A stretch of DNA of 41,622 bases from Bacilli bacterium (lineage in GTDB: Bacteria; Bacillota_I; Bacilli_A; RF39; UBA660), in assembly GCA_017886705.1 (NCBI GenBank), contig JAGHJJ010000013.1, positions 1 through 41,622 on the forward strand, given 5' to 3'. Each line of letters starts with the position of its first letter. The first letter of the stretch is position 1. Below are positions 13,161-33,051 of the stretch, piece after piece. A model generated the notes under the pieces. That model saw only the letters and a list, made by a program, of their open reading frames with translations, did not search any database and had not been told where the DNA came from. Made by a program: the position numbers and the translations under genes.

Positions 13161-15752
13161 TTATTTTTCTTCTTTTGGTGCAAATAATTTTAAAATTTCT
13201 GATACTACTAATGGCATTAATGATAGACCGATTGCTACTAACCATTGCTTTAATGTTAATGGAACAATTGAGAAGAAGTCTCTTAATACTGGTACACATA
13301 CAATGATCATTAACATTAATACTGATGCAAGCATTGCTAGGAATAGCATTTTGTTTTTTGGTTGATCTTTTGAAAAGAATGATAATGTATTGGAATGTTG
13401 ATTCATAGCATGTACTATTTGTGATAGGCATAATGTTGTAAAAGTCATGGTGATTGCTGTTTCATAACTTGTTTGTAATCCTGTGAAATATGCACTAAAT
13501 GATAATAATGTTAACAATGCTCCATAGTAAGCGATATTATAAATCATGCTTTTTTCAAATAAAGTTCCTTTTTTGGTTGGAGGATGTTTCATGGTGTTTT
13601 TATTGGCAGGATCCACTCCTAATGCTAGTGCTGGAAGTGTGTCGGTAATTAAGTTTACAAACAAAATATGGACTGCTAAAATTGGTGCTTGTAAATTAAA
13701 TACCATTGCTAAAAAGATAGTTAACACTTCGGCAATATTTCCTGTTAATAAGAATTGAATTACTTTTTGAATGTTTCTATATATTCTTCTTCCTTCTTTA
13801 ATGGCTACTTCAATGGTTGAAAAATTATCATCTAATAACAACATATCTGCTGCATCTTTAGCAACATCTGTACCATTTTTTCCCATGGCAATACCGATAT
13901 CTGCGGTATTTAGGGCAGGAGCATCATTTACTCCGTCACCAGTCATTCCTACGATTTCATGTTGTTCTTGTAGAGCATTTACAATATCTAGTTTATCTTT
14001 AGGACTAACTCTTGAGAAAACGCTAATTCTTGGTAATTTTTTATGTAGCTCTTCTCTTGTCATTTCATGAAATTCTTCTACATTAACAGCTAAATCCCCT
14101 TCTTGATAGATTCCTAATTTTTTAGCAATCGCTACTGCTGTTGCTTTATGGTCTCCAGTAATCATAATTACTCTAATACCAGCCGTATGACAACTTTTAA
14201 TGGATGACATTACTTCCCGTCTAGGAGGATCAATCATTCCAACAATGCCTAAAAATATTAAATCTTCTTCTACTTCGTTTTCTTTTAATTTTTCTGTTTT
14301 GTAAGCGAAAGCTAGACTTCTTAGGGCTTCTGTTGCTAGTTCTTCACTCTTGTTTAGAATTTTTTGTTTGTCCTCTTTGGTTAATTTTTTCTTTTTACCA
14401 TCTATCAAAGCGTAAGTACATTTTTCTACTAATTCTTCCGGAGCACCTTTCGTGTAGGATATATGTTTCTTATCTTTTGTTTTGCATACTACAGTCATTA
14501 GCTTACGGTCAGAGTCGAATGGTTTTTCATGTTCTTTTACATTTTCTTTTTTGATTTGCTCTACATTGTAGTTGTTCTTTTCGGCAAATACTAATAGCGC
14601 TCCTTCGGTTGGATCTCCTTGCATTTCTCCATTAATGATGTTAGCGTTATTACACAATACTCCGCAAGTTACTAGTTTTTCTGTTAAGGTGTTTTCCTTA
14701 TTTTCTAGTAAGTTATCGGCCGTAAAGTATTCTGTTACTGCCATTTTATTTTCTGTTAGTGTTCCGGTTTTATCTGTACAAATAACGGTTGCACTTCCTA
14801 GGGTTTCTACGGCTGGCAATTGTTTTACTAGTGCTCGTTTTTTAGCCATTCTTTGTACACCAATTGCCATAACTACTGTTACTGTTGCAGGAAGGCCTTC
14901 TGGTATTACTGAGATTGCTAAAGATATGGCAATCATTAAAATATCAATTAGGTTTTGTCCATGAAGTAAGCCAATAATAAAGATTAAGATACTTATAATA
15001 ATTCCTAAAATACTTAGTACTTTTCCAATTTTATTTAACTTTTGCTTTAATGGTGTTTCTAGACCATTATCCGTATCTAATAATTTGGCTATCGTACCTA
15101 TTTCTGTTGACATTCCAATCGATGTAACAACACCAGTTCCAGTACCATTACTAATAATGGTTGATGAGTATCCCATATTTTTTCTTTCACCTAAAGGTTC
15201 TTTGGCACTGCCAATATAATCTTTGTCTTTTTCTACTGGTACACTTTCGCCAGTTAGAGCAGACTCATCTACTAAAATATTATGTTCTTCTATCCAACGG
15301 ATATCAGCAGGTATAATATTTCCTGCTTCTAGATGGACAATGTCTCCAGGTACTAACTCACTTGCTAGTATTTTTTCTAATTTACCATTTCTTAATACCA
15401 AGGAATGTGGTGCATTCATATTTTTTAGAGCTTCTAGAGCGTTACTTGCTTTTTTCTCTTGAATTACGCTAATTACAATATTAATACTGATAATAAACAA
15501 GATGACAAATCCTTCTATTTTTTCTCCTAGTAAGAACGATAGTGCTGATGCTATTAATAAAATAATTATCATCTTATCCGTTAGTTGCTCTAAAATCATT
15601 TTTCCTATAGTTTTTTTCTTTTTTTGTTGTAGTTCATTTGATCCATATTCTGCTTGTCTTTTTTTGACTTCTTTCGTTGTTAGGCCGGTTTTTGTATTGG
15701 TATTTAATTCTTTTATTACTTCTTCTAATTGTTTTTGGTAATTATCTTGCAT
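13161..15752 (-). CDS. P-type Ca2+-transporting ATPase (P2 type)
   Basis: A protein of 863 residues, the full length for bacterial SERCA/PMCA-like pumps. It has an N-terminal cation-ATPase motif (TTKEVKKRQAEYGSNEL), actuator TGES at 167-170, the M4 calcium-site motif PEGLP at 284-288, the phosphorylation site DKTGT with Asp327, KGAPE for ATP binding, and the hinge TGDGVNDAPAL. M6 has NLITDTLPALALG, with the Asn and Asp that coordinate Ca2+. It would export Ca2+ from the cytoplasm using ATP. RBS AAAGGGAGG; a TATAAT lies at 15778-15783. The DUF2871 gene follows in the same transcript. Confidence 0.92.
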   Translation of the reverse strand: MQDNYQKQLEEVIKELNTNTKTGLTTKEVKKRQAEYGSNELQQKKKKTIGKMILEQLTDKMIIILLIASALSFLLGEKIEGFVILFIISINIVISVIQEKKASNALEALKNMNAPHSLVLRNGKLEKILASELVPGDIVHLEAGNIIPADIRWIEEHNILVDESALTGESVPVEKDKDYIGSAKEPLGERKNMGYSSTIISNGTGTGVVTSIGMSTEIGTIAKLLDTDNGLETPLKQKLNKIGKVLSILGIIISILIFIIGLLHGQNLIDILMIAISLAISVIPEGLPATVTVVMAIGVQRMAKKRALVKQLPAVETLGSATVICTDKTGTLTENKMAVTEYFTADNLLENKENTLTEKLVTCGVLCNNANIINGEMQGDPTEGALLVFAEKNNYNVEQIKKENVKEHEKPFDSDRKLMTVVCKTKDKKHISYTKGAPEELVEKCTYALIDGKKKKLTKEDKQKILNKSEELATEALRSLAFAYKTEKLKENEVEEDLIFLGIVGMIDPPRREVMSSIKSCHTAGIRVIMITGDHKATAVAIAKKLGIYQEGDLAVNVEEFHEMTREELHKKLPRISVFSRVSPKDKLDIVNALQEQHEIVGMTGDGVNDAPALNTADIGIAMGKNGTDVAKDAADMLLLDDNFSTIEVAIKEGRRIYRNIQKVIQFLLTGNIAEVLTIFLAMVFNLQAPILAVHILFVNLITDTLPALALGVDPANKNTMKHPPTKKGTLFEKSMIYNIAYYGALLTLLSFSAYFTGLQTSYETAITMTFTTLCLSQIVHAMNQHSNTLSFFSKDQPKNKMLFLAMLASVLMLMIIVCVPVLRDFFSIVPLTLKQWLVAIGLSLMPLVVSEILKLFAPKEEK

Positions 15753-28299: not shown

Positions 28300-28318
28300 A
28301 AAAATTATGACTGTTTAT
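28290..28318. terminator. Bidirectional terminator, LysR gene and PDF-kinase gene
   Basis: A 9-bp stem ACAGTCATA / TATGACTGT with a 7-nt loop, flanked by A-rich and T-rich runs. The LysR stop (28297-28299) and the convergent stop (28305-28307) both lie within it. Confidence 0.85.
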
Positions 28319-29441
28319 TTTTTAGTTTGTTTACAATTTCTGTTATTTGAGAATCAATATCTTCTGCTGTATTGATAGTAAAATCGATTAGTTCTACCGG
28401 TACTCTTTTCGTGTTTTCTTTCATCCACAGATAATCATTGAAAGTAGCAATACTGGCATTATCTTTTGTTACTGTTCTTTTTTCTAATCTTTCTTTTACT
28501 ATTTCTTCTGTGCATTCTAACCTAATAATATAATAAGGATATCCTAATTTTTTATAATACTTTATTTTTTCTTGATAATTATGTGCTAAACAACTATCAC
28601 AAATACAACTGTTTTTATTTAATAGCAATCGTTCTAGACGATACTTTTGTAGTCTGTTTTTTAAATTTGTTGTATCTTGATAATCATTTAAGAACATTCT
28701 TACTTCGTCATTATTTAATATAATTGAATTATCTTGTTTTGCGATAGCTTTCGCTACTGTAGTTTTTCCCATACCTGTATATCCATCTAATAAAATAATA
28801 TAGGGATTTTCTTTTTTTCCTTGATAAATTGGGAAGGATTTTATAAATTTCGTTATTAGCTTTGTGTTTATTTTCTGATTGGCAGGTGTATACTCTTTTT
28901 CTTTCCTAATAATTTGATATGGTTCTTTTTTCCTTAACTCTTTTCTTTCCTCTTTGGTTAGAACTTTGATTTTTAAAGCAATATCTATATGAAGTATTCC
29001 ATTTAGGTGATCTATTTCATGGGATAAGACAGTGGATTCAAATCCTTCAAAAATTTCTTGATGCTTTTTTCCTTCTATATCATAATATTCCACTTCTATT
29101 TTGTAGGGTCTTTCTACTAATCCTGTATAGTTTAGACAACTTGCACAGGCTTCCCAGTATCTAGTTAGTCCTTCTTCTTTGATAATTTTAGGATTAATTA
29201 ATACTCTTTCTTCATTATAATCTTCGTCTAGTCTTTCAAGATTTGTTTTCTTTAGATAAATTACTCTTAGCGGAATTCCTAATTGAATTGATGCAAGTGC
29301 CATAATATTATTATCATTCTTACAAAAATAATCTAACTCTTTTATGGCTTTTTTCCAGTCATCTTTTTTAAAATCTACTGGTTTTGATATTTGTCTTAAA
29401 TACTCCTCATCATTTTCAATCGTTTTTCTTTCTAATTCCAT
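28305..29441 (-). CDS. Peptide-deformylase-like domain fused to a P-loop kinase domain
   Basis: A protein of 378 residues with two domains. Residues 1-175 are a peptide-deformylase fold. Motif I is degenerate (IMALASIQLGIP, Gln53), motif II is EACAS with the metal-ligand Cys99, and motif III is HEIDH at 141-145, so all three metal ligands are kept. After a basic linker comes a P-loop domain with Walker A GYTGMGKTT (220-228), an NNDEVRMFLNDY segment, and a C-terminal lid with KERLEKRT, as in zeta-toxin/AAA_33/polynucleotide-kinase-type small kinases. The deformylase half may act on N-formyl peptides or a related amide; the kinase half may phosphorylate a small molecule or RNA end. RBS AAAGGAGA. 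It is the last gene of a three-gene operon. Confidence 0.85.
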   Translation of the reverse strand: MELERKTIENDEEYLRQISKPVDFKKDDWKKAIKELDYFCKNDNNIMALASIQLGIPLRVIYLKKTNLERLDEDYNEERVLINPKIIKEEGLTRYWEACASCLNYTGLVERPYKIEVEYYDIEGKKHQEIFEGFESTVLSHEIDHLNGILHIDIALKIKVLTKEERKELRKKEPYQIIRKEKEYTPANQKINTKLITKFIKSFPIYQGKKENPYIILLDGYTGMGKTTVAKAIAKQDNSIILNNDEVRMFLNDYQDTTNLKNRLQKYRLERLLLNKNSCICDSCLAHNYQEKIKYYKKLGYPYYIIRLECTEEIVKERLEKRTVTKDNASIATFNDYLWMKENTKRVPVELIDFTINTAEDIDSQITEIVNKLKNKQS

Positions 29442-30516: not shown

Positions 30517-32247
30517 TTAATTTTTAGATTCTGCTGTATATAAATTCTGATAAGCAGGACACTCTTTTAATAATTTTTTATGTGTTCCACTACCTGCTAA
30601 TTTACCTTTTTCAATTACATGAATTGTGTCAGCATCTATAATAGTTGATAGTCTATGAGCAACAATAATTATGGTATGATCTTTTACTAAGTCATCAATT
30701 GTCTTTTTGATATACTCTTGTGATTCATTGTCTAAAGCTGAAGTTGCTTCATCAAATAGTATTATTTTAGTATTTAATAGCAAGGTTCTAGCAATCGCAA
30801 TACGTTGCTTTTGCCCTCCAGATAAGTTTACTCCACCTTCACCGATAATTGTATCATAGCCCTTAGGTAAGCTCATAATGTAATCATCAATGTATGCTCT
30901 TTTGCAACAATCTCTTACTTCTTCTAATGTTACATCTTCCCTCACTAATTTGAAGTTTTCTAGAATTGTTAAATTAAATAAGAAGGGACTTTGTCTAATG
31001 ATAGATATATTACTTCTTAATGATTCTTGTGATAATTCTTTAATATCTATATCATCAATGGTAATTTTTCCTGTTGTTGAGTCAAAGTAACGTAATAATA
31101 AATTAAATATAGTACTTTTTCCATTTCCACTACGTCCTACGACTGCTATTTTTTTGTTAGGTTCGATGGTTAAATTTAATCCCTTTAAAGTATAATCTTC
31201 TTTTTCTGTATACCTAAATTTGACATTATCAAATTGGATAATTCCTTTGGTATTTTCTAATACTTTGTTTCCGTATTGTTCATCTTGATATAATTCATTA
31301 TTTAAAATTTCACCAATTCTCTTTAAAGAAACTGTTACTTTATTAAAACTTACTCCAAAATCACTAATACTTTCTACTACTTCATCTATTCTCCAAATGT
31401 AAGACTCCATCATTAAGAAAATACTTAATGTGATTGCTCCATCTAGATAGTATTTTCCTGTCGTAAAAAGTATTAAGAATTGAATTAAGAAATAAGCTAG
31501 ATTATTAAAAGCATAATACCATCTTTCATATTTTCTAACTTTTGCTGTATGGCCAAATAATTTATCAATTACTTTGCTGATGTTATTTTCTATTATTTTA
31601 GTAATACCTAGAGATTTTATTTCTCTGATACCAGTGATATTTTCAGTTGCTATTTTTACATAAGCATCGCTTTCTTTTTTGATTTTTTCTTGGCTCATTT
31701 TTATTCTAGGGAAGAACTTCGTAGAAATAAATCCCATGATTACTGCTAATACCATGACTTCTGCAAATAATATCCAAGATATTTGTAAAGCTAATATGAT
31801 AACAATAATGACTGCAATTGCTTTACATATTAATCTTACTATTTTAGAAAGTAATTCCATGACTCTATCTGGATCTGTGTATAGTCTATTGATAAACTCT
31901 CCTACGCCAATTTCTTCAAATGCTATTGCAGGTAGTTTATCTATTTTTTGGTATAAATCTTTACTTACATTTTTTGTAAACTTTATTTCAAAGTATGTGT
32001 AAAGATAGTCTCTTGGTATTTGTAAAAAAGTGTAAAACAGTATGTATATTCCTTCATATAATACTAAGTAAAAGACAAAAGTGTTTATATCTTTTGCTGT
32101 TAATGCTTCTACAGCTATGCCCCAGAAATATACTGCTACTAAGGCAGGTACGTATGATAAGGCAACTAGTAGTACGTATAGAAATAACTTTAATTTATCA
32201 TCTTTGATGTAGTTCCAAAATATTTTAAAATGTTTTAACTTTTTCAT
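30517..32247 (-). CDS. ABC exporter, half-transporter (TMD-NBD fusion)
   Basis: A protein of 576 residues with the type IV exporter layout. Six membrane helices (about 20-310) include the ENITGIREIKSLGI coupling-helix region. The nucleotide-binding domain has Walker A GRSGNGKST, the Q-loop RQSPFLF, the signature LSGGQ, Walker B IILFDEATSALD and the H-loop VAHRLST. It works as a homodimer or with a partner not seen here, exporting a drug, lipid or peptide; there is no peptidase domain. RBS AAAGGAG begins only about 15 nt before the ATG, directly behind a terminator. Expression is probably controlled by the leader region described separately. Confidence 0.93.
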   Translation of the reverse strand: MKKLKHFKIFWNYIKDDKLKLFLYVLLVALSYVPALVAVYFWGIAVEALTAKDINTFVFYLVLYEGIYILFYTFLQIPRDYLYTYFEIKFTKNVSKDLYQKIDKLPAIAFEEIGVGEFINRLYTDPDRVMELLSKIVRLICKAIAVIIVIILALQISWILFAEVMVLAVIMGFISTKFFPRIKMSQEKIKKESDAYVKIATENITGIREIKSLGITKIIENNISKVIDKLFGHTAKVRKYERWYYAFNNLAYFLIQFLILFTTGKYYLDGAITLSIFLMMESYIWRIDEVVESISDFGVSFNKVTVSLKRIGEILNNELYQDEQYGNKVLENTKGIIQFDNVKFRYTEKEDYTLKGLNLTIEPNKKIAVVGRSGNGKSTIFNLLLRYFDSTTGKITIDDIDIKELSQESLRSNISIIRQSPFLFNLTILENFKLVREDVTLEEVRDCCKRAYIDDYIMSLPKGYDTIIGEGGVNLSGGQKQRIAIARTLLLNTKIILFDEATSALDNESQEYIKKTIDDLVKDHTIIIVAHRLSTIIDADTIHVIEKGKLAGSGTHKKLLKECPAYQNLYTAESKN

Positions 32248-32267: not shown

Positions 32268-32292
32268 AAAAAAACTACTTTGCAGTAGTTTT
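32268..32292 (-). terminator. Leader terminator directly before the ABC exporter gene
   Basis: A perfect 9-bp stem (32271-32279 with 32284-32292) is capped by a GCAA (GNRA) loop, with seven Ts at its end on the minus strand, 21 nt upstream of the exporter ATG. Because promoter and leader ORF lie upstream and the structural gene downstream, this is an attenuator-type terminator. Seven bases of its 5' arm region (32281-32287) can instead pair with 32353-32359 in the leader ORF. Confidence 0.85.
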
Positions 32293-32314
32293 CTTTGAAT
32301 ACTTTTTTCTCGTA

Positions 32315-32410
32315 TTAAAAGATAGGAAAACACGAAGATATTTTCCTAGTTTTACTGCAGAATGTTTTTTTGTTAAATTGTGTTATTTTGTCTGTAATTA
32401 AATATCTCAT
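32315..32410 (-). CDS. Leader peptide ORF of the ABC exporter (31 codons)
   Basis: ATG 32410 with RBS GAAAGGAG (32418-32425) opens 31 codons ending in TAA (32315-32317). The peptide starts MRYLITDK and ends CFPIF, with two Cys near the end and many Lys. It lies between a strong promoter and the leader terminator, the place of the leader peptides that control antibiotic-resistance ABC genes (bmrB-bmrCD, vmlR-type attenuation). A hairpin, TAGGAAAA / TTTTCCTA (32323-32330 with 32341-32348), overlaps its last codons. A run of seven A (32365-32371) divides it: after the run, the +1 frame is open for about 30 codons and ends at TAG 32275-32277 inside the terminator, so a frameshifted 44-residue product is the alternative. 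Confidence 0.7.
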   Translation of the reverse strand: MRYLITDKITQFNKKTFCSKTRKISSCFPIF

Positions 32411-32442
32411 GTTTTTTCTCCTTTCTTTTTCTAAGTGCTATC

Positions 32443-32471
32443 ATAGTACCATGTCTTTTTTTAGTTGTCAA
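32443..32471 (-). promoter_or_regulatory. Promoter of the ABC exporter leader
   Basis: Minus strand: -35 TTGACA (32466-32471), 17-nt spacer, -10 TACTAT (32443-32448). A second TTGACA (32479-32484) lies 13 bp upstream as part of a direct repeat (TTGACAAAACTA / TTGACAACTA), possibly an operator. Confidence 0.85.
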
Positions 32472-32568: not shown

Positions 32569-33051
32569 TTATTTTTTATTTTCATTTTCTATCCTGTCAT
32601 CTACCATTTTTATTGCTTCTTGTAATAATTTTTCCAAGTCATTTATTGGTTTTTTATTGTAATCTAGTTCGTATAACCAGTCTAGATATTTTGTTTTTGG
32701 TGCATGGTCTGGTCTACCATAAATTACTTTTTTGGTAGGTAGCCAGTAGCCAAATTCTACATTTGTAGTAAATCCTGCCATATCTGGCAAGCTTCTTGGT
32801 AGCCAGAATGTGATTACGGTTGCTTCTGTTAAGGCAATTCTTTCCCAGAGTGCTTGATCTGTATAATCTTCTTTGGGATGCCAAGTAGAATATTCAGGTA
32901 CATAAACTACACCATCAAAGTTTAATTTTTCTAAAATTTCACACGCTTTCTTTCTCCATGAAATTTGATTTTCTCCTCTTGGAGTTGGTCCTGCTAAAAA
33001 GATTGATTTTTTTCCTGTGATTACAGGTTGGTCTGAATAATTTATTTGCAT
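32569..33051 (-). CDS. Nucleoside 2-deoxyribosyltransferase-like protein
   Basis: A protein of 160 residues. The N-terminal strand and loop IFLAGPTPRGE, the mid-segment ALWERIALTEATVITFWLP and the TTNVEFGYWL helix with the candidate catalytic Glu follow the NDT-like (Nuc_deoxyrib_tr_2) pattern. Members cleave or exchange the base of deoxynucleosides or related N-glycosides. The C-terminus is helical (LEKLLQEAIKMVDDRI). RBS AAAGGAG. It lies 33 nt after the PHP gene in the same direction; downstream is the ABC leader promoter, without an obvious terminator between. Confidence 0.8.
   Translation of the reverse strand: MQINYSDQPVITGKKSIFLAGPTPRGENQISWRKKACEILEKLNFDGVVYVPEYSTWHPKEDYTDQALWERIALTEATVITFWLPRSLPDMAGFTTNVEFGYWLPTKKVIYGRPDHAPKTKYLDWLYELDYNKKPINDLEKLLQEAIKMVDDRIENENKK

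Follow-up and report, generated by a model that had tools for sequence, protein, structure and literature searches.

The vmlR leader of Bacillus subtilis controls an ABCF gene by means of a ribosome that stalls at an upstream ORF (uORF) and breaks an anti-antiterminator, whereupon the antiterminator forms and transcription reads through into the resistance gene; NusG pausing and a hairpin that sequesters the Shine-Dalgarno (SD) sequence of the main gene are further features of this system (PMC9226507). An anti-antiterminator and antiterminator overlapping a short ORF are likewise found in Rli53, the lincomycin-responsive leader of Listeria lmo0919, and Rli59 before lmo1652 likewise joins a small ORF to an ABC transporter gene (PMC8079631). 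The bmrB leader of bmrCD combines a longer translated ORF, an antiterminator, a terminator and a predicted anti-antiterminator with a downstream multidrug ABC exporter, and blocking its translation lowers expression (PMC4191407). The ABC multidrug exporter PatAB of Streptococcus pneumoniae is reported to be under terminator control as well (PMC4319486).

Here we describe a leader in front of an ABC exporter gene that is, in our judgment, probably a transcription attenuator that is controlled by a ribosome, works through competition among three helices and is likely triggered by drugs. It merges traits of vmlR/lmo0919 with those of bmrB, as a long ORF reads into the antiterminator strand while the SD and start codon of this ORF serve as one strand of the anti-antiterminator. 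In vmlR, the uORF has only three codons and sits in a bulge while its SD remains outside the helix, whereas here the SD and start codon are themselves a helix strand, the ORF extends over 18 to 39 codons into the antiterminator, and the downstream gene encodes an ABC exporter instead of an ABCF protein (PMC9226507). The ORF of Rli53 also has just three codons and belongs to a different bacterial lineage; the likeness to Rli53 and Rli59 drawn here is one of described architecture (PMC8079631). In bmrB, which spans 162 bp, the terminator lies inside the ORF, the exporter is made by two genes (BmrC/BmrD) and the predicted anti-antiterminator has no assigned role, unlike the one proposed here (PMC4191407). 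Overall, the locus is best read as an antibiotic-responsive, ribosome-mediated attenuator that would work like vmlR and lmo0919. Searches of Rfam at gathering and permissive thresholds gave no credible family and nothing at or above the gathering threshold, and a full-text search of open-licence papers returned no report linking this lineage (RF39) with leader peptides.

The leader and its exporter

The window, i.e., the whole stretch of DNA analyzed, comprises 41,622 nucleotides of a Bacilli bacterium (contig JAGHJJ010000013.1 of assembly GCA_017886705.1). A first-pass annotation made from the sequence alone had described a promoter, a leader ORF, a complementarity between this ORF and the terminator, an enclosed hairpin and a terminator before the exporter, and all of these elements are indeed present on the minus strand where it had placed them. 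Together with the strands that we add, the locus reads as follows:

32443 to 32471, minus strand: sigma-A-type promoter TTGACA-17-TACTAT with a TG preceding the -10 (consensus scan, 10/12)
32399 to 32426, minus strand: P1, leader SD, spacer and first codons; 5' strand of the putative anti-antiterminator (duplex, covariation)
32315 to 32410, minus strand: leader ORF of 31 codons, MRYLITDKITQFNKKTFCSKTRKISSCFPIF, with SD AAGGAG; putative ribosome sensor
32353 to 32359, minus strand: AT, antiterminator 5' strand TGCAGTA (complementarity, covariation)
32341 to 32348, minus strand: P2, TAGGAAAA, local partner of P1' that makes a hairpin inside the antiterminator (common to near relatives, not universal)
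32319 to 32344, minus strand: P1', candidate switch strand, paired with P1 (off) or with P2 within the antiterminator (on) (minimum-free-energy fold, duplex, covariation)
32284 to 32292, minus strand: T5, terminator 5' arm, which together with the start of the loop is the alternative partner of AT (complementarity, covariation)
32268 to 32283, minus strand: terminator loop GCAA, 3' arm and T run (sequence, folding, covariation of T5:T3)
30517 to 32247, minus strand: regulated gene, a 576-aa ABC exporter half-transporter with ABC_membrane and ABC_tran domains (domain search)

The promoter runs from TTGACA at 32471 over a spacer of 17 nt to the end of TACTAT at 32443, is among the best-scoring sites of a consensus scan over 6 kb, and has visible counterparts of the type TTGACA...TATNNT 5' of the leaders of relatives. 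Along the RNA, the elements follow in the order P1, AT, P1', T5 and T3. TGCAGTA (32359-32353) is the exact complement of TACTGCA (32287-32281), and the hairpin enclosed between them pairs TAGGAAAA (32348-32341) with TTTTCCTA (32330-32323) over 8 bp. The intrinsic terminator, AAAACTACT-GCAA-AGTAGTTTT within a 7-T run (32274-32268), lies between uORF and gene and is overlapped by the antiterminator, an arrangement of the vmlR, lmo0919 and bmrB type; a simple terminator scan missed it in the window, though it covaries in relatives. Compared with dinucleotide shuffles, the leader folds with a z-score of -4.2 and its 3' part with -5.4 (0/200 shuffles as good).

The exporter, which starts with an ATG at 32247, carries both domains in one half-transporter like Sav1866/MsbA-type proteins, and its nearest half-size bacterial relative in the list of solved structures is Sav1866 (2hyd). 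No NCBIfam model scored above cut-off for this protein, which appears multidrug-like by homology. Directly upstream and on the same strand lies a nucleoside 2-deoxyribosyltransferase-like gene (32569-33051; PF15891). We also note a single ORF elsewhere in the window (28305-29441) that joins a peptide deformylase domain to a P-loop kinase/zeta-toxin-like domain (Pep_deformylase, AAA_33, Zeta_toxin).

A candidate anti-antiterminator at the leader start site

The key element absent from the first-pass annotation is a long-range helix in which P1 pairs with P1'. Most leaders have an SD, spacer and start codon (e.g., GTGAGAATATG, GTGGAAAATATG and ATGAGACTTTT) that are complementary to a strand located between AT and the terminator (TATTCTCAC, ATGTTTTCCAC and AAAAGATGTCTCAT). 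The minimum-free-energy fold of the window leader already contains this helix (32426-32399 with 32344-32319), and the duplex energy of -19.2 kcal/mol was reached by none of 100 shuffles. The P1:P1' duplex was better than at least 95% of shuffles in 46 of 56 leaders, and the same was true of AT:T5 in 49 of them. P1:P1' crosses AT:T5 and the two therefore compete, while AT:T5 and T5:T3 have T5 in common. In our model, P1:P1' is the anti-antiterminator, and a ribosome positioned at the start codon would remove it; in silico, both covariation and constrained folding point to such a ribosome-removable helix as known from vmlR and lmo0919. P2 is a local copy of P1, and in the window and its near relatives P1' can pair with it as well, which gives the enclosed hairpin of the first-pass annotation. 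We considered this P2:P1' hairpin as a universal element, but only 10 of 56 leaders beat shuffles at the 5% level and it is kept as a feature of a subset.

Conservation and covariation among relatives

Scanning contigs of one genome per species yielded 80 loci, nearly all from metagenome-assembled genomes of uncultured Bacilli (Candidatus Onthousia, Caccenecus, Ventrenecus and others), of which 77 had enough upstream DNA to be assessed for a leader. The same leader precedes about 57 of these 77 exporter orthologues, i.e., 55 found by a script (leader ORF plus terminator, corrected by hand) and two by a covariance model (L088 and L089); it was not detectable in the remaining ca. 20. Automatic terminator choice took the P2:P1' hairpin in the window, where the terminator was thus assigned by hand. 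Within the window's genus, the covariance model gave a strong match to the exporter-type leader in 8 of 16 sampled genomes. A search upstream of orthologous exporters, which the first-pass annotation had named as a check, therefore bears out its leader ORF, AT pairing and terminator as conserved with covariation.

Covariation was assessed in an alignment of 36 leaders (A3) made with MAFFT from sequence only, from which the L025-like group with its pairing in another register was excluded. With paired columns picked after inspection of some of the aligned sequences, 84.8% of cells are paired in P1:P1' (two-sided changes at 6/11 pairs), 82.3% in AT:T5 (7/10 pairs) and 93.3% in T5:T3 (6/8 pairs). 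The joint covariation score of P1:P1' and AT:T5 is 0.403 versus 0.213 ± 0.012 in shuffles (0/500 as high) and 0.07-0.19 with slid partners; relatedness inflates such counts, and the slid controls retain this relatedness. P1 covaries most strongly within the spacer, at positions -4 and -1 and thus beyond the SD core, so that SD conservation does not explain these columns. RNAalifold on the whole alignment recovered the terminator alone, crossing and very long-range helices being hard for this program.

Leader peptides are not conserved

A uORF with SD was found in 56 leaders and is predicted to be translated. It stays open into AT in 54 of these 56, compared to 22% expected from shuffles for 16 open codons, though the leaders are related and do not count as independent trials. 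The encoded peptides range from 18 to 39 aa and have no motif common to the families, and even among the close relatives that make up the L025 group each of the three frames is used across AT. It is thus the RNA that is conserved and not the sequence or length of the peptide or even the frame across AT. Because peptide length and frame vary, we expect ribosomes to be arrested at or near initiation and not at a specific motif. Early codons are alike in two groups (MRYLIT and MRLLVT); these MRYL/MRLL starts resemble macrolide-arrest starts, which we treat as a lead only.

A second leader before a putative aminoglycoside resistance operon

A covariance model (R1) was run against the window's genome and its relatives. 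It found one further strong site in the window's genome (57.6 bits, E 1.8e-6) that is also present in four congeners. This second leader has its own P1 (GGAGTGTGAT), P1' (ATCACACTTC), AT and terminator with sequences different from those of the window leader. It also carries the P1 sequence a third time (TAGTGTGAT; L102:1573-1628), directly ahead of the terminator, which allows P1' to join an extended antiterminator stem; five genomes share this feature, one of them in slightly altered form. The operon that follows is located in the window's genome at:

G000:C61:13970-18204 (L128:71-4305); also L127 and L130: second-leader operon, with the leader at 13970-14113

It comprises two GNAT genes, a third, GNAT-like gene of 260 aa and a bifunctional enzyme of the AAC(6')-Ie/APH(2'')-Ia type with 487 aa, which share a strand and are separated by short gaps or overlap slightly, and we infer that they are co-transcribed. 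A 279-aa gene without assigned function also belongs to the operon. The bifunctional enzyme matches NF033692 with 548.7 bits (cut-off 475), contains a domain of the APH(2'')-Ia/If/Ih family that exceeds the curated cut-off, and shares about 79% amino acid identity with the clinical enzyme of Enterococcus and Staphylococcus. The operon may represent a reservoir form related to the clinical aac(6')-aph(2'') gene. Gene order is the same in one related genome (G014) and largely the same in another (G003). At a further locus (L121, G015:C30), the leader lies directly before the 279-aa gene with no GNAT or AAC/APH genes in between, so that the cargo downstream of the leader varies within the genus. 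The R1 model found no leader on the two plasmids examined in connection with the clinical gene. A common origin of the 260-aa GNAT and the GNAT beside the clinical gene was considered and dropped, as they have no meaningful similarity.

The remaining strong R1 matches, found in two samples of about 80 family genomes, lie upstream of ABC exporters 38-68% identical to that of the window. Matches below about 40 bits (L103, L111, L112 and L120) looked spurious and were discarded.

Folding with a ribosome

Constrained folding was performed on transcripts ending before T3, i.e., at equilibrium and ignoring kinetics. Under these conditions, the probability of AT:T5 exceeds 0.5 in 23 of 56 leaders without a ribosome, meaning that P1:P1' is not favoured in every leader, and in 51, 47 and 26 of 56 with a ribosome at codons 1, 5 and 10, respectively. 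For the window, the corresponding probabilities are 0.31 without a ribosome, 1.00 at codon 1, 1.00 at codon 5 and 0.95 at codon 10. Since a ribosome at codon 1 or 5 raises AT:T5, one held at the leader start is predicted to turn the switch on, in line with the earlier proposal that an early-stalled ribosome favours the antiterminator.

The off state is a different matter. The first-pass annotation had a finishing ribosome cover AT and let the terminator form, but in the window a ribosome at the stop codon has its predicted footprint some 20 nt downstream of AT and permits AT:T5 with a probability of 0.59, and AT would be covered in only 13 of 56 leaders. The conserved off-state element is instead P1:P1', which places the locus closer in logic to vmlR and lmo0919 than to bmrB. 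As a whole, the earlier interpretation is partly supported.

Proposed mechanism and alternatives

Sequence comparison establishes the leader elements, their conservation, covariation in three helices, the lack of peptide conservation and the linkage to ABC exporters and a putative aminoglycoside resistance operon, and the model that we propose builds on these. Once RNA polymerase has passed the promoter, P1 would pair with P1', which crosses and so excludes AT:T5; the T5:T3 terminator would then form and transcription would end before the exporter. If a ribosome came to a halt at the start codon or among the first codons, most likely because of a translation-inhibiting drug, it would occupy P1 and free P1', which in the window may fold onto P2, so that AT could pair with T5, the terminator would be blocked and the exporter transcribed. 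We infer a sensor role for the ribosome, antibiotics as the natural signal and their removal by the exporter.

This logic would answer any ribosome held at the start, and compromised protein synthesis is among the inducers of vmlR (PMC9226507). One may thus ask whether the leader is a general sensor of slow translation, caused by starvation, cold or defects in ribosome assembly, in front of an exporter with a housekeeping or stress role. We consider this unlikely given that the same architecture precedes an operon with one aminoglycoside-modifying enzyme in the same genome and that the other strong model matches lie at ABC exporters. Somewhat less credible still is a peptide-specific attenuator as originally drawn, in which a drug stalls ribosomes at a motif, a finishing ribosome masks AT and no anti-antiterminator exists. 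Leader ORF, AT and terminator are real, much of the L025-like group has the stop codon within or beside AT, which a terminating ribosome would then mask, and the shared early codons of two groups would suit such a mechanism; however, P1:P1' covaries across families that have no peptide motif in common, the frame across AT shifts among close relatives, and a terminating ribosome leaves AT uncovered in the window and in 43 of 56 leaders.

A structured, covarying leader with alternative helices could also be a riboswitch for a metabolite or protein with an incidental ORF, but the conserved helix strand is an SD with start codon, nearly all leaders keep the ORF open into AT, and we saw neither a conserved core resembling a ligand pocket nor an Rfam match, making this very improbable. 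A/T-rich DNA offers chance pairings, yet covariation well above shuffles and slides and the recurrence of the architecture before a second, resistance-type operon leave hardly any room for an ordinary terminator and a chance ORF without a switch.

Implications for uncultured gut Bacilli

Beyond the single locus, we give even chances to the idea that one RNA architecture, without any protein regulator, runs a lineage-wide resistance regulon in uncultured gut Bacilli. The start site would double as an anti-antiterminator strand, and the arrest of any ribosome at initiation or close to it would, regardless of the peptide, switch on ABC exporters and the AAC(6')/APH(2'') operon. The leader is a covariation-supported and apparently peptide-independent candidate for antibiotic sensing in a large group of these bacteria, and its covariance model allows genes that may respond to drugs to be located there with no need for culture. 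What anti-antiterminators such as the one of bmrB do becomes directly testable, and the same switch before an operon with a near relative of a clinical bifunctional enzyme suggests that these bacteria have regulated resistance genes.
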